From the IMG/VR virus record IMGVR_UViG_3300030389_001291, positions 1 to 59,520 of that record: a DNA stretch of 59,520 nucleotides. One strand, 5' to 3'. Under the pieces are notes generated by a model, which had not been told where the DNA came from, did not search any database, and worked only from the letters and a program-made list of their open reading frames with translations. The position numbers and the translations under genes were made by a program. This DNA is from a virus. The first letter of the stretch is position 1, and each line of letters begins with the position of its first letter. Below are positions 1-59,520 of the stretch, piece after piece.

Positions 1-98
1 AAATCAGAATTTTAACCTTAACTGTCCTTGGAGGGACAATTTATTATGCAAAATAATCATAATAAAAAAACGGGGTCTCCAGTTTCTACTGTAGTTTC
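1..98. repeat. Terminal redundancy (left copy) marking a circular genome
   Basis: Bases 1-98 are identical to 59422-59519. The next base differs (t at 99, a at 59520). The overlap means the sequence closes into a circle of about 59,421 bp, as expected for a circularly permuted or assembled-to-completion phage genome. The cut point falls inside a hammerhead ribozyme and just before a gene, so it is an arbitrary assembly break and not a natural end. Confidence 0.9.
23..38 (+). promoter_or_regulatory. SD-in-loop hairpin (stem UGUCC/GGACA, loop UUGGAG)
   Basis: Bases 23-27 pair with 34-38 in five perfect pairs, leaving the loop TTGGAG, which is the Shine-Dalgarno of the gene at 46. The same loop with different, compensating stems precedes five other genes (1073, 55197, 55597, 56820, 57925). 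The covariation argues for an RNA structure under selection. Confidence 0.75.
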
Positions 99-828
99 TG
101 ATGAAACGAAACTTTGGTTAGAAAACTTAGAGACTAAATATGGTATTGGTGTTGGTAGACAACTTTTTTATGTCTTAGCAGACATTATTCAATCTGAAAA
201 AGATTTAGAAAAGTTGGTAGTCAAAGGATTACTTAAAGAGCATGAAAGCAAAGGGAAACTTTTGCAAGATATGGCTAATGAACTTGGATTAAATTCTAAT
301 TCTAAGCCAGTTATTAGTGCTAATGTTGTTGATGTTTTTACTAAAAAAACTAAACCAATAAACAAGACTATTAAGAAAGTCTTAAAGACTAATTCTGATA
401 TCAATACTAAAATGAAATCCGCTATGCAAGATTGCGTTAGTAAAAATCAATCGAATGAATTTGAGATTGATTGGACTAGCCTAGGCAAATATAGATATTC
501 TGATTTAGATATTTTAGGAATGTCATTGAAAGGATATTCTGTATTAAAAGAAGATAATCTTTTCTGTGGATTTAAAAGTGGTATGTTTGCTACTCTTCAC
601 AACCAAGCGTTGGCATTGTGGAGGGATGAGGAAAAGCAACCTACGATTAAAGAAATTGTTAGATTGCAACCACGATATACCAAGACTGGAGAACTTAGGA
701 ATTTGTGTATTCAGTCTATCGCCAAGAGATTATTTAAGGCTATTGTTCACTTTGGAACTGCGGAAGAGAAACAGTTGTTATTTGGAACTTCTGAAATCTA
801 TCCTAAGCCAAGGAAGAAAAAAGCCTAG
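46..828 (+). CDS. Unknown 260-aa protein, last large gene of the ribozyme operon
   Basis: I do not recognise this protein. It is hydrophilic and rich in Lys/Asn, with a charged central linker (about residues 85-140) between an N-terminal helical part and a C-terminal part ending in a basic PKPRKKKA tail. No membrane segment or enzyme motif is visible. The ATG at 46 is chosen over the upstream TTG at 28 because the TTG lies inside the ribosome-binding sequence CCTTGGAGG (26-34). That sequence sits in the loop of a hairpin (23-38). Upstream, across the circle junction, are a hammerhead ribozyme and the VWA gene, so it is probably cotranscribed with the MoxR/VWA genes. A terminator follows at 852-882. 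Confidence 0.85.
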   Translation: MQNNHNKKTGSPVSTVVSDETKLWLENLETKYGIGVGRQLFYVLADIIQSEKDLEKLVVKGLLKEHESKGKLLQDMANELGLNSNSKPVISANVVDVFTKKTKPINKTIKKVLKTNSDINTKMKSAMQDCVSKNQSNEFEIDWTSLGKYRYSDLDILGMSLKGYSVLKEDNLFCGFKSGMFATLHNQALALWRDEEKQPTIKEIVRLQPRYTKTGELRNLCIQSIAKRLFKAIVHFGTAEEKQLLFGTSEIYPKPRKKKA

Positions 829-838
829 AAAATAATAG

Positions 839-853
839 ACTGGTAAATATTTT
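839..853 (+). repeat. Dispersed ACTGGTAAATATTTT element
   Basis: This is one of about a dozen copies of an element whose full form is the palindrome ATTTAC(CA/TG)GTAAAT followed by ATTT. It lies right after the stop of the gene ending at 828 and just before a terminator hairpin. Confidence 0.6.
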
Positions 854-882
854 ATCATCTGATTCGGAGATGGTAATTTTTT
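852..882 (+). terminator. Rho-independent terminator
   Basis: TTATCATCT (852-860) pairs with AGATGGTAA (868-876), with one G-U pair and a 7-nt loop, and is followed by six T (877-882). It would end transcripts of the gene at 46-828. A second inverted repeat (TTAAGAGGG near 891-899 with CCCTCTTCTTAA near 928-939) lies just downstream. Confidence 0.7.
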
Positions 883-977
883 GAGCTGATTTAAGAGGGG
901 GGTTTTTTGGGGTATCTTATGCCCTTACCCTCTTCTTAAATTTGCAATAGGCGAAGTCTCACGAAGTCAATTTTTGC

Positions 978-1038
978 AAAACTGTATAGAAAATGCGTAT
1001 TTTCTACTGATGATTGCCAAAAGGCATGAAACAGTTTT
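978..1038 (+). ncRNA. Hammerhead ribozyme, type III (HH-B)
   Basis: Stem III is AAAACTGT (978-985) with ACAGTTTT (1031-1038). The cleavage site is after A986. Stem I is TAGAAAA (987-993) with TTTTCTA (1000-1006). The core CTGATGA is at 1007-1013, and stem II TGCC(AAAA)GGCA is flanked by a U-U mismatch. GAAA at 1028-1031 completes the core. All core residues of the family are present. It lies between the terminator of the previous gene and the start of the gene at 1073, in the same strand. The first pair of stem II (U-U instead of G-C) is a deviation shared with two other copies and may slow cleavage. Confidence 0.85.
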
Positions 1039-1050
1039 ATTAATTTTAAC

Positions 1051-1066
1051 TGCCCTTGGAGGGGTA
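1051..1066 (+). promoter_or_regulatory. SD-in-loop hairpin (stem UGCCC/GGGUA, loop UUGGAG)
   Basis: Bases 1051-1055 pair with 1062-1066 (one G-U), displaying TTGGAG (1056-1061), the Shine-Dalgarno of the gene at 1073. The stem differs from the other copies but stays complementary. Confidence 0.7.
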
Positions 1067-1072
1067 ATTATT

Positions 1073-1393
1073 ATGAAAAATGAAAAAGAATATGTTTATG
1101 ACATTGAGGAATATTCCCAAGATGTTAGGCATTATCAAATTACATCTAATGTAAAACTTACTTATGATGAAGTTAGGAACTCTTATCAAGAAAGTGATGC
1201 TTATAATAGAGTGAAAGTCTTTAGAGGTTTTAAAAATAGTTGTAATAATTTATCAAAACTTATTGACTGGTCTAATGATAGATTTACAAATCATCAAATA
1301 GACAAACAAATCAAAGTCTATGGTGTTTTTCAAGGCACAAAGTATGGCGATGATTGTCAAGTTGATATAACTGGAGAATTTGAAAATGACTAA
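1073..1393 (+). CDS. Unknown 106-aa protein after a hammerhead ribozyme
   Basis: A small, charged protein (MKNEKEYVYD start) of unknown function, with no membrane segment or known motif. Upstream in-frame codons run through the ribozyme, so the ATG at 1073, placed 7 nt after the SD-loop hairpin, is the supported start. Its end overlaps the next gene by 8 nt, suggesting translational coupling. Confidence 0.8.
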   Translation: MKNEKEYVYDIEEYSQDVRHYQITSNVKLTYDEVRNSYQESDAYNRVKVFRGFKNSCNNLSKLIDWSNDRFTNHQIDKQIKVYGVFQGTKYGDDCQVDITGEFEND

Positions 1394-1652
1394 TAGGGAA
1401 TTGTTAGAATTTACTTTGAAAGTAAACATAGGAACTTGCAACGAAATCTATACGAAGATTGATAGGCAACTAGAAGAGAAATCAGATATTGATATGGCTC
1501 TAGTTAAATATTTTAATACTTTGGTTTCGATTAATCACAAAGTGCAAGATGTTTTATACAAAGAAAGGGCGGATATGAATTTACCTTTTCCAAAACATCT
1601 TGGATTTACAAGTGATAATCAAATAATAGAAGTTGAAGTGCAAGATATATAA
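1386..1652 (+). CDS. Unknown 88-aa protein, last gene of the ribozyme operon
   Basis: The reading frame starts at the ATG at 1386 inside the end of the previous gene (TAA at 1391-1393), so it is likely translated by coupling and has no ribozyme of its own. The product is short, helical and of unknown function. A strong terminator follows 9 nt after the stop, closing the operon. Confidence 0.75.
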   Translation: MTNRELLEFTLKVNIGTCNEIYTKIDRQLEEKSDIDMALVKYFNTLVSINHKVQDVLYKERADMNLPFPKHLGFTSDNQIIEVEVQDI

Positions 1653-1660
1653 ATAAATTA

Positions 1661-1704
1661 AGGCGGGATGCTACTGTAAAAGGTGGTGTCCCGCCTTTTT
1701 TTTT
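1661..1704 (+). terminator. Strong Rho-independent terminator
   Basis: AGGCGGGA (1661-1668) pairs with TCCCGCCT (1689-1696) and is followed by a run of nine T. It ends the ribozyme operon before the origin region. Confidence 0.9.
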
Positions 1705-1752
1705 GGTCTAAAAAAAGAGAATATGGTGGAGCTATCGCAGGTGCTAATAAAA

Positions 1753-1861: not shown

Positions 1862-1893
1862 TGTGGATAAGTCTGTGGAAAAGTTGTGTATAA
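1862..1893. other. Cluster of three DnaA boxes, candidate replication origin
   Basis: Read on the minus strand the 9-mers are TTATCCACA (1862-1870, a perfect DnaA box), TTTTCCACA (1874-1882, one mismatch) and TTATACACA (1885-1893, perfect under the TTATNCACA consensus). Starts are 12 and 11 bp apart, close to one helical turn, in the same orientation. The surrounding DNA is AT-rich, non-coding and flanked by terminators. The phage has a primase-helicase but no visible polymerase, which fits recruiting host DnaA and replisome here. An isolated DnaA-like 9-mer TTATCAACA also occurs at 5449. Confidence 0.65.
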
Positions 1894-1896
1894 CTC

Positions 1897-1925
1897 TTGC
1901 AATATGCTATCTTTTATATTATATT
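1897..1925 (+). promoter_or_regulatory. Sigma70-type promoter for a small RNA
   Basis: TTGCAA (1897-1902), a 17-nt spacer and TATATT (1920-1925). The only product before the terminator at 1984-2018 would be a non-coding RNA of roughly 85-90 nt. Confidence 0.5.
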
Positions 1926-1931
1926 GTGATT

Positions 1932-2018
1932 ACCAACATGAAATATAGAATGTAAGTTCATTTACTATATTACCTCCAAGGTAGGGAGGCAGTCGAAAAG
2001 ACTGCTTCCCTTTTTTTT
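1932..2018 (+). ncRNA. Predicted small RNA with anti-SD loop CUCCAA and terminator
   Basis: The 5' end is estimated 7 nt after the -10 box. The 3' end is a classic terminator: an 11-bp stem (1984-1994 with 2000-2010) and eight T. Just before it, TACC/GGTA (1971-1974, 1980-1983) forms a mini-hairpin exposing TCCAA. The stretch CCTCCAAGG (1973-1981) is the exact reverse complement of CCTTGGAGG, the ribosome-binding sequence of the ribozyme-led genes. It could repress or otherwise control those genes in trans by loop-loop contact followed by 9-bp pairing. The transcript is predicted, not shown. CCTCC alone also matches the 16S rRNA tail, so only the CAAGG extension is specific. Confidence 0.55.
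1984..2018 (+). terminator. Rho-independent terminator of the small RNA
   Basis: GGGAGGCAGTC (1984-1994) pairs with GACTGCTTCCC (2000-2010) with a single G-U, loop GAAAA, then T8 (2011-2018). Confidence 0.9.
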
Positions 2019-2090
2019 GTCTTTAAGTGATAGTCTAGTGATAGTTGTCCTTATAGTTGCAAACTACACACCTGTCAGTTCCATCAAAAA

Positions 2091-3310: not shown

Positions 3311-5054
3311 CAACTTCTTCAATTTCTGCGTATCTCCCATTTACTGGATTAAAGGACATATTAACACTTCCTAACTTACCTTGCCAACCCCATCTAGCTT
3401 TCCAGTTATGTATCTCAACTCCCTCTTCTCCTCTATAAACAGTCAATCCAGTATCAGCTTTACTAAACCAAGCATAAGATTTAGCTACATCAACACCAGT
3501 ACAAACATTCTTTTTGCCATCCCTAATGAAAGGCTTTGTAGGATGTGCGACAAAGAACACCAATACATCATGTTGCTTTGCGAATAACTGCACTTTTGTT
3601 AGCATTTCGCTGACCATATCAGTTTCTAACCCAGTATGTTCAGTATGTATAAAGTTAAATGGGTCTATGACTAATACTCTTATGCCATATCTCATAACTG
3701 CACTTGCTCCCTTTTCTAAGATAGCTTCTATTGTTGGCAACCCGCCATCTTGATAGTCTTGAAATAGTATGTGTTCTCTTATCCAAGTCTCCGCAAAGTC
3801 TTTCTCTTCTTGGGTCATTCTTATATTAGTACCCTCAAAGAATGGCTTACCTACAAGGATTTGAGACAACTGAACTGCATGAAGCTGAACTGGTTTTTCA
3901 AAAGAACAGAAACAAGTTTTCCACCCGTTGTTCCTTGCAACATTAACCACTAATTGGTCTATGAAAGCTGACTTACCATCCCCCGCATGACCAGTACACA
4001 CAACTAAATTGCCTGTAGATAAAGTAAATATCTCATCAACACTTGCATATCCTGTAGATACACCGCTTGGCATACCTTTATCATATAAACTTTGAAACTC
4101 ATCTGCATAATGGTCTAGGTTATTTAAACCATGTAAAGGTATTGGCTCGGCATTTAGCACGACATCTCTTAGCTTTTCTGCTCCATGTTTTAATAGAACA
4201 TCATTAGCATCTTTACAATCTAGGTTATCTACTCTATAACATCTAGCTTTATTTAATCTTCTAGCTAATTCATCTGCTAGTATGTTTCCGTTTTCATCTG
4301 CATCTGTACAAAGAATAATCCTTTCAACATTCTCAAACTTATCCCTATCATTCCATACATACTTAAATCTACCATCTTCGCTTGGGTCTATCTTGTTATC
4401 AGTAATCTTGTTTGGAGCTCCATTGGGAACAGAATAGCAATCTACATTCATCACACCCTCAAAAGCTGTTTTGATAGCTAGTGTGTCCATTTCTCCCTCG
4501 GTTATGATGATTGTGCTTTTTAATGTTGGCAATTTGCTATCATAAACCTGTTGACCCCACAACTTTTGAGCGTTCCCATCCCACCAAAAACTCTTGCTTC
4601 CATTTGCACTTCTATACTTAACTGCTTCTACCTCTCCATCGCTAACGAAGGAAAAACCTATGACTGGTTTATATTTTTTTTCCGTCAGGATGCACCCTGC
4701 TGTCTCCGAGGCTGTAATACTTATACCTCTTTCCTGCAACCAATCACTAGCTTTACCATTAGATATATTTTCTGGAACTTCTACTGGTTTTTTTACTTCT
4801 TGTTTTACTACTTTCATTTTAAAATCCTCTCTCCTTGAAACTAAACCATTGATACCGCAATGATGACAATGATATATAACCTTATCAGCTTCTATGTTTA
4901 CTGATAAAGGCTTGTCTTGTTTGTTTTTACTTCTTTGGTTTTGGCATACATGACAAGATATTTTATGTTGACCAAGTTTCATACCGCTTGTCCTTGGCTG
5001 ATTATTTACATGACTTAAAAAATCTCTTTTATCCATTTCACTATTGACATACAT
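3285..5054 (-). CDS. Bifunctional DNA primase-helicase (T7 gp4 type)
   Basis: 589 aa. Domains in order: an N-terminal zinc ribbon (C34xxC37 ... C63xxC66), a TOPRIM primase core with EGEMD (186-190) and DAD (251-253), and a RecA/DnaB-type hexameric helicase with Walker A GHAGDGKS (355-362), Walker B VLVIDPFNF (about 460) and the FFVAHP motif (about 495). It would prime and unwind at the fork. A good ribosome-binding site (AGGAGG on the minus strand) precedes the ATG at 5054. With no phage polymerase visible, it presumably works with the host polymerase. Confidence 0.93.
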   Translation of the reverse strand: MYVNSEMDKRDFLSHVNNQPRTSGMKLGQHKISCHVCQNQRSKNKQDKPLSVNIEADKVIYHCHHCGINGLVSRREDFKMKVVKQEVKKPVEVPENISNGKASDWLQERGISITASETAGCILTEKKYKPVIGFSFVSDGEVEAVKYRSANGSKSFWWDGNAQKLWGQQVYDSKLPTLKSTIIITEGEMDTLAIKTAFEGVMNVDCYSVPNGAPNKITDNKIDPSEDGRFKYVWNDRDKFENVERIILCTDADENGNILADELARRLNKARCYRVDNLDCKDANDVLLKHGAEKLRDVVLNAEPIPLHGLNNLDHYADEFQSLYDKGMPSGVSTGYASVDEIFTLSTGNLVVCTGHAGDGKSAFIDQLVVNVARNNGWKTCFCSFEKPVQLHAVQLSQILVGKPFFEGTNIRMTQEEKDFAETWIREHILFQDYQDGGLPTIEAILEKGASAVMRYGIRVLVIDPFNFIHTEHTGLETDMVSEMLTKVQLFAKQHDVLVFFVAHPTKPFIRDGKKNVCTGVDVAKSYAWFSKADTGLTVYRGEEGVEIHNWKARWGWQGKLGSVNMSFNPVNGRYAEIEEVDDNFDWEF

Positions 5055-55126: not shown

Positions 55127-55184
55127 TATGAATTGACATACTGAAGAGCATCCTATTTTGGGATGCAAGAAACTGACCTTGGAG
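55116..55184 (+). ncRNA. Divergent hammerhead ribozyme, type III (HH-F), sequestering the SD
   Basis: Stem III CAGT (55122-55125) pairs with ACTG (55172-55175) and can extend by CTCCAA/TTGGAG (55116-55121, 55179-55184) past a 3-nt bulge, hiding the ribosome-binding site. Cleavage after C55126. Stem I TATG/CATA (55127-55130, 55137-55140), core CTGAAGA (55141-55147; position 7 is variable in the family), stem II GCATCC/GGATGC (55148-55153, 55161-55166). Two extra A (55167-55168) lie before GAAA (55169-55172), so activity is uncertain. Confidence 0.5.
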
Positions 55185-55188
55185 GGTC
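55175..55188 (+). promoter_or_regulatory. SD-in-loop hairpin (stem GACC/GGUC, loop UUGGAG)
   Basis: Bases 55175-55178 pair with 55185-55188, exposing TTGGAG for the gene at 55197. Confidence 0.65.
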
Positions 55189-55196
55189 TTAGAATT

Positions 55197-55484
55197 ATGG
55201 AAAAAAATAAAGAACAAATAATATTTTTTATTGACCATATAAATACTTTTAGCGATATAGAAAAAGAACTTCATCTAACTGGAGCAAAATATATCTCAAT
55301 GGAACATTCAAAAAGATATGAATGTTTAAAAGTGAAATTTGAAGTTGATGATTATCATCAAAGAAATAAATTAATTAAACTTGCCTTAGAACACGACATT
55401 GATACTAAGATAATTTTTGATGATAGATTTACTCTTAACCAAATTCACGAAAAAGTATTTGATAGATATATCAGAACTTATTAA
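55197..55484 (+). CDS. Unknown 95-aa protein, first gene of the ribozyme operon
   Basis: A small, charged protein (IIFFIDHINTFSDIEKELHL near the N-terminus) of unknown function. The ATG at 55197 lies 8 nt after the SD-loop hairpin; the longer frame begins inside the ribozyme. Its stop codon directly abuts the next ribozyme (HH-E starts at 55485), so cleavage trims the message right at the end of the coding region. Confidence 0.8.
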   Translation: MEKNKEQIIFFIDHINTFSDIEKELHLTGAKYISMEHSKRYECLKVKFEVDDYHQRNKLIKLALEHDIDTKIIFDDRFTLNQIHEKVFDRYIRTY

Positions 55485-55544
55485 ACCGACTGATGAGCCA
55501 ATGAAATTTTGGCGAAACTAGATAAGAAATTATCTAGTCTTGGT
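55485..55544 (+). ncRNA. Hammerhead ribozyme, type I (HH-E)
   Basis: Stem I ACCGA (55485-55489) with TTGGT (55540-55544, one G-U), core CTGATGA (55490-55496), stem II GCCAA/TTGGC (55497-55501, 55509-55513), GAAA (55514-55517), stem III ACTAGATAA (55517-55525)/TTATCTAGT (55530-55538) closed by GAAA, cleavage after C55539 in the classic GUC context. Every core base matches the consensus; this is the most canonical copy. Confidence 0.92.
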
Positions 55545-55561
55545 GTTAGCAATTTGCTAAC
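55545..55561 (+). other. Hairpin directly after HH-E
   Basis: GTTAGCA (55545-55551) and TGCTAAC (55555-55561) form a 7-bp stem with a 3-nt loop. It would cap the 5' side of the downstream cleavage product and could protect it. Confidence 0.5.
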
Positions 55562-55576
55562 AAATATTAAACTTAA

Positions 55577-55592
55577 AATTCTTGGAGGAATT
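55577..55592 (+). promoter_or_regulatory. SD-in-loop hairpin (stem AAUUC/GAAUU, loop UUGGAG)
   Basis: Bases 55577-55581 pair perfectly with 55588-55592, exposing TTGGAG for the MoxR gene at 55597. Confidence 0.75.
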
Positions 55593-55596
55593 AATT

Positions 55597-56667
55597 ATGT
55601 TTAAACCTAGTGAAGCAAAAAAATCATGCCTACATATTTTGAAAGGAAGTAATATTCCATTCTTAATTGGTGGTACTGGTGTTGGTAAATCCGCTATCGT
55701 TAAAGAGATTGCGGAAGAACTTGCGAATGGTAGAACTTTAACTGATAACATCAATCCAAAAAAAGATGAATTTGGTTTTATCTCTTTTAGATTGGGATTA
55801 GTTGAAAGTATTGATTTAGGCGGACTGCCACACATTGATGAAGAAACTGGTATTCAGAAAAAAGCAATGTTGGGTAATTTGCCAAGAGGTGGCGAGGGTC
55901 TATTTTTCTTGGATGAATTTGCACAAGCTCATTCATCAGTCCAAGCAACGATAGGTCAATTACTCGACCCAAAAGGAAAAAACGAAGAGCGAAAAATTGG
56001 CGAATATGTTTTTCCTAGTGGGTGGAAAATTGTCCTAGCGGGTAATAGACATACTGATAGAAGTGGAGCAAATAAAATTCTTAGGCATTGCCAAGATAGA
56101 ACTACTGCAATTCAGTTTACTCACGATGTAAACGACTGGTTAGACTGGGCTGATAGCAACGATGTTGACTTGAATGTCCAAGGTTTAATTAGATTTATGC
56201 CACAACTACTTTGGGACTTCGACCCAAAATCTAATGACCCACAACCAAGTCCAAGAAGTTGGGTAAGGTTAAGCGATACACTAAAAACTAACCCGCCTAA
56301 AGAGTTGAGACAAAAACTCTTCGAGGGCGATGTTGGTCAAGAGTGTGCCATTGAATTGATGAATTTTATTTCACTTCAAAATGATGTGCCAAACATATCA
56401 AAAATATGTAAAGGCGATGAAGTAGAATTGATTGATGAAGCGGGTCTTTGTTATGCGACTACGATTGCTCTAACTACAGCGATTGCACAAGCGGATGACA
56501 AAAACATATATGACTACTTTGAAAATGCTTTAAATTATGTGAAGCAATTTTCGACTGTAGAATTTTCTATATTCTTTGTTAGAAAAATTACTGGACTTAG
56601 AAACGAACTCAAAGAGTGCGATGTATATTCTAAATTCAAAGTTGATAACCAAGATTTAGAAATCTAA
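55597..56667 (+). CDS. MoxR-type AAA+ ATPase
   Basis: 356 aa. Walker A IGGTGVGKSAIVKEIAEE (about 24-41), Walker B GLFFLDEFAQA (about 107-117), sensor-like KIVLAGNRHTDRSG and an arginine-rich HCQDRTTAIQF region. MoxR ATPases work with VWA-domain partners as chaperones that mature or activate other complexes. The partner is two genes downstream. The ATG at 55597 follows the SD-loop hairpin by 4 nt. Confidence 0.9.
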   Translation: MFKPSEAKKSCLHILKGSNIPFLIGGTGVGKSAIVKEIAEELANGRTLTDNINPKKDEFGFISFRLGLVESIDLGGLPHIDEETGIQKKAMLGNLPRGGEGLFFLDEFAQAHSSVQATIGQLLDPKGKNEERKIGEYVFPSGWKIVLAGNRHTDRSGANKILRHCQDRTTAIQFTHDVNDWLDWADSNDVDLNVQGLIRFMPQLLWDFDPKSNDPQPSPRSWVRLSDTLKTNPPKELRQKLFEGDVGQECAIELMNFISLQNDVPNISKICKGDEVELIDEAGLCYATTIALTTAIAQADDKNIYDYFENALNYVKQFSTVEFSIFFVRKITGLRNELKECDVYSKFKVDNQDLEI

Positions 56668-56683
56668 ATTTACATGGCGAGTT

Positions 56684-56718
56684 AAGGAATATTTATTATT
56701 TACTGGTAAATATTCCTT
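56684..56718. repeat. 12-bp inverted repeat containing the dispersed element
   Basis: AAGGAATATTTA (56684-56695) and TAAATATTCCTT (56707-56718) form a perfect 12-bp stem around TTATTTACTGG. No T tract follows in either direction. It sits between the MoxR stop and HH-C. Confidence 0.65.
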
Positions 56719-56724
56719 TCCCGC

Positions 56725-56785
56725 TAATTCTAATATCAAGATGTGTGTCTTGGCTGATGATTAGGAAACTATGAAATTAGAATTA
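56725..56785 (+). ncRNA. Hammerhead ribozyme, type III (HH-C)
   Basis: Stem III TAATTCTAAT (56725-56734) with ATTAGAATTA (56776-56785, 10 bp), cleavage after A56735, stem I TCAAGA/TCTTGG (56736-56741, 56748-56753), core CTGATGA (56754-56760), stem II TAG(GAAA)CTA flanked by U-U, GAAA (56773-56776). Stem I is identical to HH-A while stems II and III differ with compensation. Confidence 0.88.
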
Positions 56786-56798
56786 TTAATCATAAACC

Positions 56799-56812
56799 GA
56801 CCTTGGAGGGTC
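56799..56812 (+). promoter_or_regulatory. SD-in-loop hairpin (stem GACC/GGUC, loop UUGGAG)
   Basis: Bases 56799-56802 pair with 56809-56812, exposing TTGGAG for the gene at 56820. Confidence 0.7.
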
Positions 56813-56819
56813 AAGTATT

Positions 56820-57785
56820 ATGAAAAAAGATAATGTAAATACTCTATCTGAAAATGCTACTTTGGTGCGACTTACAACGAAGCATCCAAGCGGTATTAAA
56901 TCAGATAAGAATTTAAAAGAGGGTTTAGCAATAGACCAAAATGCACATGAAAATTCGCTTCATGTCGCTAAGTATATTTTTGGTAAAGAAACGAATAAAT
57001 ATTTTCGTAGAATTATCAATCAGTTTAGGAATAATTATTTTTATCCTTTAACTGTTCCTTGGGATGATAATACTAGCGACTACGAGGGAAAAGTTTTAAG
57101 CGGGTGGAGATTATGTCCTAACCAAGAACTGGATAACCTTGTTGATAAAGTGAATGAAGCTAAGGCGGATTTTGATAAAGAAGTTAAACAATTTCTTGAT
57201 AGCTACGATAATTTAATCGAGCAAAATAAATACGCTCTTGGTAATGCATTTAAGTTGTCTGATTATCCTACTAAAGAAGAGATTGAGCATAAGTTTAAAT
57301 TTGATTTTGAACTTGGCACAGTCCCACAATTTAGTAGCAACGATATTCGTATTGGTGTATCTGAAAAACTTCGCAAGAAGATTGAGAATGATGCATTAAA
57401 AAGGGCAACCAAAAATGTAGAAGCGATAACTAGAACAACAGTCGAAACTCTTTTGGAAAGTGTTGAGCATTTAGCTGACAAGCTAAAATCATACGACCCA
57501 AAAACTAAAGGTGGAGGTTTCTTTAAGAAATCATCATTCGATAAGTTGAGACAATTTTTAGATACGCTCCCAAGTATCAATTCTGACATTCTAGGGAATG
57601 ACAAAAAGATAACGGAAGCACATCAAAATTTAGTTAGCGTTTTTGCAAAAATTAATGATGTCGATGCTCTTCGCGAAGATGATGATTACACAGCCAACAA
57701 AAGAAAACAGTTGGCTGATGATTTAACTTCGAGTGTCGATGATTTAAAAGGCGGATTTTTAGATAATATGTATTCTAAAAAGTAG
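56820..57785 (+). CDS. Unknown helical protein of the MoxR/VWA unit (321 aa)
   Basis: A long, mostly helical, charged protein with coiled-coil stretches (about 108-140 and 185-240) and an N-terminal part with NYFYPLTVPWDDNTSDYEGK. I do not recognise the family. Its place between the MoxR ATPase and the VWA protein, each with its own ribozyme and SD loop, suggests a third subunit, as in bacterial MoxR-X-VWA triads. Confidence 0.8.
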   Translation: MKKDNVNTLSENATLVRLTTKHPSGIKSDKNLKEGLAIDQNAHENSLHVAKYIFGKETNKYFRRIINQFRNNYFYPLTVPWDDNTSDYEGKVLSGWRLCPNQELDNLVDKVNEAKADFDKEVKQFLDSYDNLIEQNKYALGNAFKLSDYPTKEEIEHKFKFDFELGTVPQFSSNDIRIGVSEKLRKKIENDALKRATKNVEAITRTTVETLLESVEHLADKLKSYDPKTKGGGFFKKSSFDKLRQFLDTLPSINSDILGNDKKITEAHQNLVSVFAKINDVDALREDDDYTANKRKQLADDLTSSVDDLKGGFLDNMYSKK

Positions 57786-57803
57786 TCTGATGAGTTGCGG
57801 GGA

Positions 57804-57831
57804 AAAAACTATTTACCAGTAAATATTTTTT
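57804..57831. repeat. Hairpin with perfect ATTTACCAGTAAAT palindrome
   Basis: The 14-bp palindrome is at 57811-57824. Extended pairing of AAAAA (57804-57808) with TTTTT (57827-57831), with one mismatch, gives an AT-rich hairpin followed by T. It might act as a weak terminator or a protein site between gene and HH-D. Confidence 0.65.
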
Positions 57832-57837
57832 CTTCGC

Positions 57838-57892
57838 TTCTGTCTTAGGATGTAGTCCTAACTGATGATGACTGAAAACAGTCGAAACAGAA
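57838..57892 (+). ncRNA. Hammerhead ribozyme, type III (HH-D)
   Basis: Stem III TTCTGT (57838-57843) with ACAGAA (57887-57892), cleavage after C57844, stem I TTAGGA/TCCTAA (57845-57850, 57856-57861), core CTGATGA (57862-57868), one extra T, stem II GACTG(AAAA)CAGTC (57870-57883), GAAA (57884-57887). All stems differ in sequence from other copies but pair. Confidence 0.85.
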
Positions 57893-57904
57893 ACTCATAA
57901 ATAA

Positions 57905-57920
57905 AATTCTTGGAGGGATT
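57905..57920 (+). promoter_or_regulatory. SD-in-loop hairpin (stem AAUUC/GGAUU, loop UUGGAG)
   Basis: Bases 57905-57909 pair with 57916-57920 (one G-U), exposing TTGGAG for the gene at 57925. Confidence 0.65.
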
Positions 57921-57924
57921 AATT

Positions 57925-59310
57925 ATGATGAATAGTGAAGAGCGAATAATAAAAGCTAGAGCAAAACTTATGAAAGGTAATGTTGGAATGGCAACCATGT
58001 TATTAAAACTTACTTTGATTGAGAACAATGAGCGATGCCAAACAATGGCTACTGACGGCGTTAATATTTATTGGAATGATGAATTTGTTAAATCAATAAC
58101 AGATGAGGAAATCCAAGCGGTATTGGTACACGAAGCTAGTCATGTTATTTGGGAACATCCGCTTAGAAAAGGAAATCGAAATCACGAACTTTGGAACATA
58201 GCTACTGACTATGTAATTAACTCTTGGATAGCATACGATTTACATATGCAATTACCCGAGGAGGGATTACTTGATAGGAAGTATCACGGACAAAGTGCGG
58301 AGCAAGTTTATAGAACTTTATCGAATGATGAAGATGCTTTAAACGATGCTCTTGAAGATTTAAAATCAAAATCTGATAATGGCGATTCTGATTCTGATTC
58401 TGATTCTGATTCTCAAAATGGTACTGGCGATTCTGATTCTGATTCAGATTCAGATTCAGATTCAAATTCTGATTCTGATTCTAGTTCTGACTCAAACGAT
58501 ACTGCTAATGGAAATGGTAAAGGCAAGTCTCTTGAAGAGAAACTTGCTGATGTTCAATTACCAAGTGGCGAAGTATGGATGCCAACGAATGATGAGGGCA
58601 AAGAATTATCTCCTAGTGAAATGGCTGACTTACAAGAACAGTTGCAAAGAACTATTGCCATGGCTGACAAATTGGAAGGTATGAGCGATGAGGGATGCGG
58701 TGGTTTTGGCGATGCCATGAAACAACTTAATGAAAGTTATGTTGACTGGGTAGATGTGATGCGAGACTTATTGCAAAGTGCTATTGCTACCAACCCCACA
58801 TGGACAAGATTGAATAAAAGACATTCTTGGAGGGGGATTAACTTGCCAAGCAAAGACAAAGAGCCACAAGGTGGCGAACTTGCGATTGCTATAGATACAA
58901 GCGGAAGCGTATGCCAAGAGGAACTCAATGTTTTTGCTACTGAAATCAATGCCATTGCAGAAGATTGCGGTATCAATAAAATTAGAGTTTGCTATTGCGA
59001 TACTACTGTCCGCAAAAATTCTAAAGGCGAATGGTGGGATGAGTACGACTTAGATTGTGAAGAGTTGGAACTCGTTGCCCGTGGTGGCGGTGGAACTAAT
59101 TTTGACCCGCCTTTTAACTTATTCAATGACTATACTGATAATACGGATGAAGTGATAGCGTTTATCTACTTTACGGATGCTTACGGATATTGTTCTGAAG
59201 AAGTTGAGCCTAATGTCCCAGTAATATGGGCGTTAAGTGGCGGAGAAAATTACTATAGCGATGAACTCCCTTTTGGCGAAAAAGTTGCTATCGATTTCTC
59301 TAGGTTTTAA
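57925..59310 (+). CDS. Metallopeptidase-VWA protein (DUF2201 type)
   Basis: 461 aa. The N-terminal putative peptidase domain carries HEASHVIWEHP (H69, E70, H73 zinc motif). A Ser-Asp repeat linker (about 150-195) follows, coded by GATTCT/GATTCA hexamers. The C-terminal VWA domain has the metal site DTSGS (in AIAIDTSGSV, about 325) and a late GGGGTNFDPPF loop. VWA proteins pair with MoxR ATPases such as the one at 55597. The ATG at 57925 (or 57928) follows the SD-loop hairpin. Role in infection unknown. Confidence 0.88.
   Translation: MMNSEERIIKARAKLMKGNVGMATMLLKLTLIENNERCQTMATDGVNIYWNDEFVKSITDEEIQAVLVHEASHVIWEHPLRKGNRNHELWNIATDYVINSWIAYDLHMQLPEEGLLDRKYHGQSAEQVYRTLSNDEDALNDALEDLKSKSDNGDSDSDSDSDSQNGTGDSDSDSDSDSDSNSDSDSSSDSNDTANGNGKGKSLEEKLADVQLPSGEVWMPTNDEGKELSPSEMADLQEQLQRTIAMADKLEGMSDEGCGGFGDAMKQLNESYVDWVDVMRDLLQSAIATNPTWTRLNKRHSWRGINLPSKDKEPQGGELAIAIDTSGSVCQEELNVFATEINAIAEDCGINKIRVCYCDTTVRKNSKGEWWDEYDLDCEELELVARGGGGTNFDPPFNLFNDYTDNTDEVIAFIYFTDAYGYCSEEVEPNVPVIWALSGGENYYSDELPFGEKVAIDFSRF
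58380..58498. repeat. GATTCW hexanucleotide repeats coding a Ser-Asp linker
   Basis: Two blocks of (GATTCT/GATTCA)n, interrupted by a short Gln-Asn-Gly-Thr-Gly coding stretch, keep the frame and encode (DS)n. Copy-number change by slippage is likely. Confidence 0.8.
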
Positions 59311-59375: not shown

Positions 59376-59430
59376 TTCTGATATCAAGATGTGTGTCTTG
59401 GCTGATGATTGCAAAAGCATGAAATCAGAA
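59376..59430 (+). ncRNA. Hammerhead ribozyme, type III (HH-A), spanning the contig junction
   Basis: Stem III TTCTGAT (59376-59382) with ATCAGAA (59424-59430), cleavage after A59383, stem I TCAAGA/TCTTGG (59384-59389, 59396-59401), core CTGATGA (59402-59408), stem II TGC(AAAA)GCA flanked by U-U, GAAA (59421-59424). It controls the gene at 46 on the circle; its 3' end is repeated at bases 1-9 because of the terminal overlap. Confidence 0.87.
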
Positions 59431-59519
59431 TTTTAACCTTAACTGTCCTTGGAGGGACAATTTATTATGCAAAATAATCATAATAAAAAAACGGGGTCTC
59501 CAGTTTCTACTGTAGTTTC
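59422..59519. repeat. Terminal redundancy (right copy)
   Basis: Identical to bases 1-98. The final base of the window (a at 59520) disagrees with base 99 (t), either an assembly-edge error or a real variant in the population. Confidence 0.9.
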
Positions 59520-59520
59520 A

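Follow-up and report, generated by a model that had tools for sequence, protein, structure and literature searches.

Small RNAs of phages are known mostly from temperate phages and from single targets, and c4 RNA is made in the transcript of its target and then processed out. RNAIII has a length of about 500 nt, and Yfr1, a host gene of cyanobacteria, consists of a stem-loop, a conserved unpaired C-rich motif (about CUCCUCACAC) and a terminator stem. The candidate small RNA (sRNA) described here, found in a stretch of viral DNA of 59,520 nucleotides (the window), shares this build with Yfr1, but the latter is a host gene with another motif. Staphylococcus aureus RNAIII pairs with Shine-Dalgarno (SD) regions of several mRNAs, additionally makes loop-loop contacts and blocks 30S binding (PMC2837412). 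Similarly, the sRNA would cover the SD of several mRNAs and make loop contacts, and a block of the 30S subunit is proposed here, whereas RNAIII is a chromosomal RNA whose targets are virulence mRNAs from scattered genes, and here a phage RNA of ~87 nt faces an SD-loop hairpin that is repeated at most genes of one operon (PMC2837412). With the LhrC/UCCC class of Listeria it has in common the short length, a C-rich anti-SD motif in a loop or linker and the proposed block of translation, but LhrC is present in five copies with three motifs each, compared with one copy, one motif and lineage-specific flanks here (PMC4132741). The Rhizobiales sRNAs SmelA075 and SmelA099, which carry CCUCCUCCC loops, likewise combine a conserved anti-SD loop with diverged stems; in the sections of the source considered they are described as chromosomal, with several identical loops and a generic anti-SD motif, and a matched operon is not reported there (PMC3927594). 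The c4 RNA of phages P1 and P7 is also phage-encoded, probably has its complementary stretches in loops and blocks translation at a ribosome-binding site (RBS), as is proposed here, yet it is directed against one antirepressor mRNA in inter-prophage immunity, while in these uncultured marine phages a separate unit faces six leaders (review PMC12197685). Co-transcription as for c4 is not found, since a terminator (1660-1705) lies between the operon and the sRNA unit, and the latter has a promoter motif of its own. Of the traits of SD-blocking sRNAs as a class, the sRNA shows a C-rich seed that is predicted to be looped or single-stranded and that matches the SD regions of the operon leaders over 8-12 nt. 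The promoter and terminator sequences that an independent transcript would require are present and conserved. What is new relative to these systems is the operon-wide standard hairpin, the origin in uncultured marine phages and the lineage-specific flanks; a search of a limited literature collection found neither a paper on small RNAs of pelagiphages nor anything combining bacteriophage small RNA, anti-Shine-Dalgarno and hairpin loop.

The elements of the unit and of the operon are compiled in Table 1, and quite probably they represent a trans-acting sRNA encoded by the phage, which binds the operon's SD loops by base pairing, blocks ribosome binding and represses translation. The first-pass annotation had pointed to promoter-like boxes and to a mini-hairpin exposing TCCAA, both of which are present in the window, and to an 11-bp terminator with T8, which exists with its T-run but has one pair more. 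It had also taken CCTCCAAGG (1973-1981) as complementary to all six SD loops. The loop TTGGAG is indeed common to 6/6 hairpin leaders, but the exact 9-nt complement is found in four of them (at 55177, 56801, 26 and 1054), while those at 55580 and 57908 read TCTTGGAGG and pair with the seed over 8 nt. Within the window CCTTGGAGG occurs six times, compared with 0.12 expected by chance, with five plus-strand copies and a single minus-strand copy, the latter being the sRNA site. As the window carries the same sequence at both ends (1-98 = 59423-59520), the plus-strand copy at 26 recurs at 59447 as one and the same site, which leaves four distinct plus-strand sites. The two ends are identical except for the last base, giving a unit of about 59,422 bp, and the genome is therefore circular or terminally redundant. 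The sRNA was without a match at gathering score among the Rfam 15 covariance models (4227 families), its best weak match being HrrF, which scored 21.6 bits where the cut-off is 77.

Table 1. Positions of the candidate sRNA unit, the target operon and the SD-loop hairpins in the window
Feature	Position	Strand	Basis or remark
DnaA-box-like sites TGTGGATAA and near copies	1864-1895	+	immediately upstream of sRNA promoter
Candidate sRNA promoter	1897-1925	+	-35-like TTGCAA, 17-nt spacer, -10-like TATATT (sequence, scan)
Predicted sRNA, about 87-89 nt	1932-2019	+	start predicted from -10 box, end from terminator
Seed UACCUCCAAGG	1971-1981	+	part 1973-1981 (CCUCCAAGG) complementary to CCUUGGAGG
Mini-hairpin TACC-TCCAA-GGTA	1971-1983	+	sequence
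Rho-independent terminator of sRNA	1983-2019	+	12-pair stem 1983-2011, T8 at 2012-2019
Target-operon terminator	1660-1705	+	16-pair stem, T8; between operon and sRNA unit
Target operon, first part	55197-59310	+	Pfam and PHROGs
95-aa protein gene	start 55197	+	first gene of target operon
MoxR-like AAA ATPase	55597-56667	+	PHROG 1297
DUF3150 protein	56820-57785	+	Pfam/PHROGs
DUF2201 metallopeptidase + VWA-like domain	57925-59310	+	PHROG 1314
Target operon, second part (past circular join)	46-1652	+	260-, 106- and 88-aa proteins, function unassigned
SD-loop hairpin GACC(TTGGAG)GGTC	55175-55188	+	leader of 95-aa gene (start 55197)
SD-loop hairpin AATTC(TTGGAG)GAATT	55577-55592	+	leader of MoxR-like ATPase gene (start 55597)
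SD-loop hairpin GACC(TTGGAG)GGTC	56799-56812	+	leader of DUF3150 gene (start 56820)
SD-loop hairpin AATTC(TTGGAG)GGATT	57905-57920	+	leader of DUF2201/VWA gene (start 57925)
SD-loop hairpin TGTCC(TTGGAG)GGACA	23-38 (repeated 59444-59459)	+	leader of 260-aa gene (start 46)
SD-loop hairpin TGCCC(TTGGAG)GGGTA	1051-1066	+	leader of 106-aa gene (start 1073)

The target operon, on the plus strand, extends from ~55175 past the circular join up to its terminator, and its 88-aa gene (1386) is without an SD-loop hairpin. Hammerhead-like elements lie between some of its genes, so that the label "ribozyme operon" is plausible: a match to RF00008 at 57837-57893 (32.4 bits, E 0.0004) and a RAGATH-1-hammerhead-like element at 55452-55544 are both below the Rfam cut-offs, and two copies recognized by eye (56725-56785 and 59376-59432) are 88% alike and read CTGATGA...GAAA. 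A further copy of TCTTGGAGG is located at 58825-58833 inside the VWA gene, away from any gene start, and the related contigs L006 and L020 retain it, the latter in hairpin form; it may be an internal sRNA site or merely conserved coding sequence. The same DUF2201/VWA protein contains an (Asp-Ser)n stretch encoded by a run of GATTCT/GATTCA repeats at 58384-58500.

With the primase-helicase that adjoins the sRNA as query, 43 IMG/VR loci were retrieved, and its profile added more. The sRNA unit is carried by 77 related contigs, forming 31 clusters at 90% primase identity, and keeps a constant position after the operon terminator and before the primase, the typical order in most relatives being operon terminator, promoter motif, CCTCC and second terminator. 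A homologue of the operon terminator (AAGGCGG...CCGCCTT) is likewise present in most relatives. When second terminators were called without using the seed, 36/36 in the first set of relatives had CCTCC within 60 nt upstream, and for all contigs CCTCC was found just upstream of 59/73 such terminators versus 3/68 operon terminators, against a background of 4% of random 79-nt windows; the 14 terminators without it mostly resemble diverged operon terminators or stem from contigs without the sRNA unit. The promoter motif TTGC..TGC[AT]A precedes the seed by up to 110 nt in 19/28 clusters, with 0.014 expected, and the seed recurs as (A)ACCUCCA(A/U) variants. The recurrence of the arrangement in 77 related contigs goes beyond chance, and the conservation of the unit and of its complementarity to the leaders is firm. 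The earlier proposal of a small RNA gene with a seed complementary to the operon SD loops is supported, and the conservation of the seed where the SD loops are conserved, on which the first-pass annotation had staked its candidate, is observed in the relatives.

Strong hairpin leaders accompany the sRNA, as the contigs L034, L089 and L090, which are without it, have 0/23, compared with 84/242 where it is present, and the parts examined of three named pelagiphage-like genomes have 3/77; cultured pelagiphages that lack the hairpins are likewise without the sRNA. No DNA match to the window was found among the cultured phages searched. The nearest terminases include those of Pelagibacter phage HTVC027P and seawater phage 023Pt_psg01 (58-61%), the relatives being at 51-58% for pelagiphages, 61% for a seawater phage and 58% for a gammaproteobacterial phage. 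A protein search with MoxR gave a close relative in no named phage (best identity 28%), and the MoxR/VWA operon was not found in the gene tables of terminase-related cultured phages that were examined. The host is left unassigned, because bacterial genomes gave no relative of the primase.

The hairpins themselves are maintained by compensatory changes. Among 117 distinct TTGGAG leaders, 326/468 cells of the first four stem positions are paired, compared with 239 +/- 9 after shuffling of the arms, and the stems exchange C-G, A-T, T-A and G-C while the SD loop remains constant. Stems of at least four pairs are formed by 116/199 operon-side leaders versus 17/93 other leaders. CsrA/RsmA sites consist of a short hairpin that covers the SD and has GGA in its loop, and the leaders resemble them, with the loop conserved and the stems free, so that the hairpins could instead be sites of a protein repressor (CsrA-like or a phage protein), with the sRNA as decoy, anti-decoy or unrelated. 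This is distinctly unlikely, as the flanks of seed and leader tend to covary, and an sRNA that carries the complement of the loop rather than the loop cannot be a classical CsrA sponge.

The predicted 89-nt sRNA folds better than shuffled sequences (z = -5.5), mostly because of its terminator. The predicted folds share the order of a 5' hairpin (in many), seed, second small hairpin and terminator, and the seed is predicted to be unpaired with a mean probability of 0.3 to 1.0, exceeding 0.5 in most clusters. In most lineages the seed is placed in a single-stranded linker that leads up to the second hairpin. It is looped out by a hairpin in L036, L057, L058, L065 and L091 and weakly in the window, where the mini-hairpin, shared by the nearest relatives, leaves the seed with a mean unpaired probability of about 0.5; the RBS complement is loop-borne in these cases, as is likely for c4 RNA, and linker-borne elsewhere. 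A kissing loop was therefore rejected as the general geometry and is one way of exposing the seed rather than a defining feature: the kissing mini-hairpin that had been proposed is limited to the window's nearest relatives, with another form in five lineages. The opposite strand was considered as well, because in the window the minus strand carries TACCTTGGAGGTAATATAGTAA-ATG and then a frame of 15 codons, spaced much as in the operon leaders, as if it were a seventh SD-hairpin leader of a small leftward gene. However, the frames vary from 4 to 67 codons and are unrelated between lineages or absent, and in most lineages both the promoter motif and the terminator with its T-run indicate the plus strand. 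A minus-strand leader peptide was rejected on account of the unconserved frames, and a functional minus strand is scarcely credible.

For the plus-strand sRNA, duplexes between the seed region and five listed operon leaders have calculated energies of -14.8 to -21.8 kcal/mol (the opening of the stems not charged), compared with -9 to -13 kcal/mol when these leaders are paired with the 16S tail. These five are among the eight best sRNA targets in the window by duplex energy, and the sixth leader (1073) is missing from the ranking because its frame has an earlier ATG. The ranking bears on the alternative that the sRNA imitates the 16S anti-SD tail in a general way, titrating host and phage SDs at large, with an incidental match to the operon. 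Such a mimic would agree with the CCUCC core, which is the core of the anti-SD, and with non-operon leaders, including some primase leaders, that pair over 6-9 nt and show weak covariation on the 3' side. It is nonetheless unlikely, given the rank of the five leaders, flanks that differ between lineages rather than being fixed at CACCUCCUUA, and hairpin leaders that outpair the non-operon leaders of their own genome (2.83 vs 1.36, p = 0.0015).

Seeds differ among the relatives (AACCUCCAU, AAUCCUCCA, AACCUCCUA, AGACCUCCAA) and the operon leaders tend to follow this variation (AUGGAGGUU, UUGGAGGAUU, UAGGAGGUUUU, GAUGGAGGUCU). In the window the seed CCUCCAAGG is paired with the leader CCUUGGAGGG, in the L025 group AACCUCCAU with AUGGAGGUU, in L042 AAUCCUCCA with UUGGAGGAUU, in L058/L061 UAAAACCUCCUA with UAGGAGGUUUU(A), in L038/L040/L088 AGACCUCCA with GAUGGAGGUCU, and in L014 CUCCAAAAAA with UUUUUUGGAG. 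The view that CAAGG carries the specificity is half right, as some lineages match mainly 5' of GGAGG and others 3' of it (L042, L069: GGAGGAUU), and for L021, L055 and L074 the match to their own leaders is poor on one or both sides. When the sRNAs were shuffled among genomes (swap test) and scored by the mean number of pairs beyond GGAGG, own leaders reached 2.57 versus 1.68 for foreign leaders (28 clusters, p = 5e-5), with p = 5e-5 for 14 clusters at 80% identity and p = 2.5e-4 for seven at 75%, the test being powerless at three or two clusters; other CCTCC sites within the same contigs reached 0.97. For the hairpin leaders the effect was seen on the 5' side (1.63 vs 1.11, p 1e-4) and the 3' side (1.19 vs 0.65, p 1e-4). 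For non-operon leaders it was absent on the 5' side (0.40 vs 0.38) and present on the 3' side (0.92 vs 0.58, p 0.001), so that part of the signal may reflect a genome-wide SD style or further targets, e.g. the primase. In path-disjoint pairs of the primase tree with different seeds, own leaders were better in nine cases and worse in two, with four ties (one-sided Wilcoxon 0.027, sign test 0.065), and for the hairpin leaders alone better in seven versus worse in three (p = 0.097); single-site tests on this tree had too few independent changes and were hence powerless. Given this modest outcome, covariation between seed and leader is suggested rather than proven once descent is allowed for.

From these sequences we infer that the sRNA is transcribed, pairs in the cell and has a repressive effect. 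It would be made from its own promoter and terminator between the operon terminator and the genes on the far side, and would expose an anti-SD seed composed of ACCUCCA and lineage-specific flanks. At most operon genes the seed would first contact the loop of the short hairpin that holds the SD, the stem would then open, and a duplex of 8-12 bp would form over the SD. The SD would thereby be hidden from the 16S tail, with the sRNA competing with the ribosome and initiation prevented, and the operon genes would be repressed together, setting the output of the operon, perhaps late in infection.

A DnaA-like box is found within 320 nt upstream in 14/28 clusters, with about 0.03 expected. These boxes adjoin the promoter and would fit an origin-associated RNA acting as primer or in replication control, with the leader match as a secondary use, but this is very improbable, because a primer needs neither a strong terminator nor a seed that tracks the operon leaders. 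For the translational repressor, the boxes beside the promoter provide a circumstantial link to replication, and timing by replication is possible. More tentatively, the system may be a lineage-private lock-and-key switch, in which an sRNA timed by replication, through transcription beside the DnaA-box cluster, shuts off a ribozyme-containing operon, and in which the flanks of seed and loop drift together, so that related phages in one cell need not cross-regulate. If the repressor reading is true, uncultured marine phages possess an sRNA devoted to a single operon, nearly all genes of which carry a standard landing hairpin. The natural variation between lineages would then offer ready-made seed and loop changes for compensatory tests, and an SD-loop hairpin repeated in one operon, together with its complement before a terminator, would serve as a simple rule to search uncultivable viruses for sRNA-operon pairs.

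Several further sequences were noted around the locus. The SD of the primase leader at 5054 (minus strand), TAGGAGGTAAG, can pair with the remaining half of the seed, GGAGGTAA, over 8 nt in the window and over 6-9 nt in the other clusters listed, and the primase may be a second sRNA target. A partial palindrome, ATTTACTGGTAAATATT, is repeated in intergenic places at about 839, 1751, 1835, 2086, 2142, 3038, 54755, 56697, 57806 and 59333, and at comparable places L030 and L033 read AATATTCACTAGTGAATATT, resembling an operator with a lineage-dependent sequence. The promoter motif of the sRNA, TTGCAATATGCTATC (1897-1911), is mirrored as GATAGCATTTTGCA at 2258-2272, upstream of a gene at 2289, where the mirror copy has a TATAAT of its own, and one regulator could act on both promoters.
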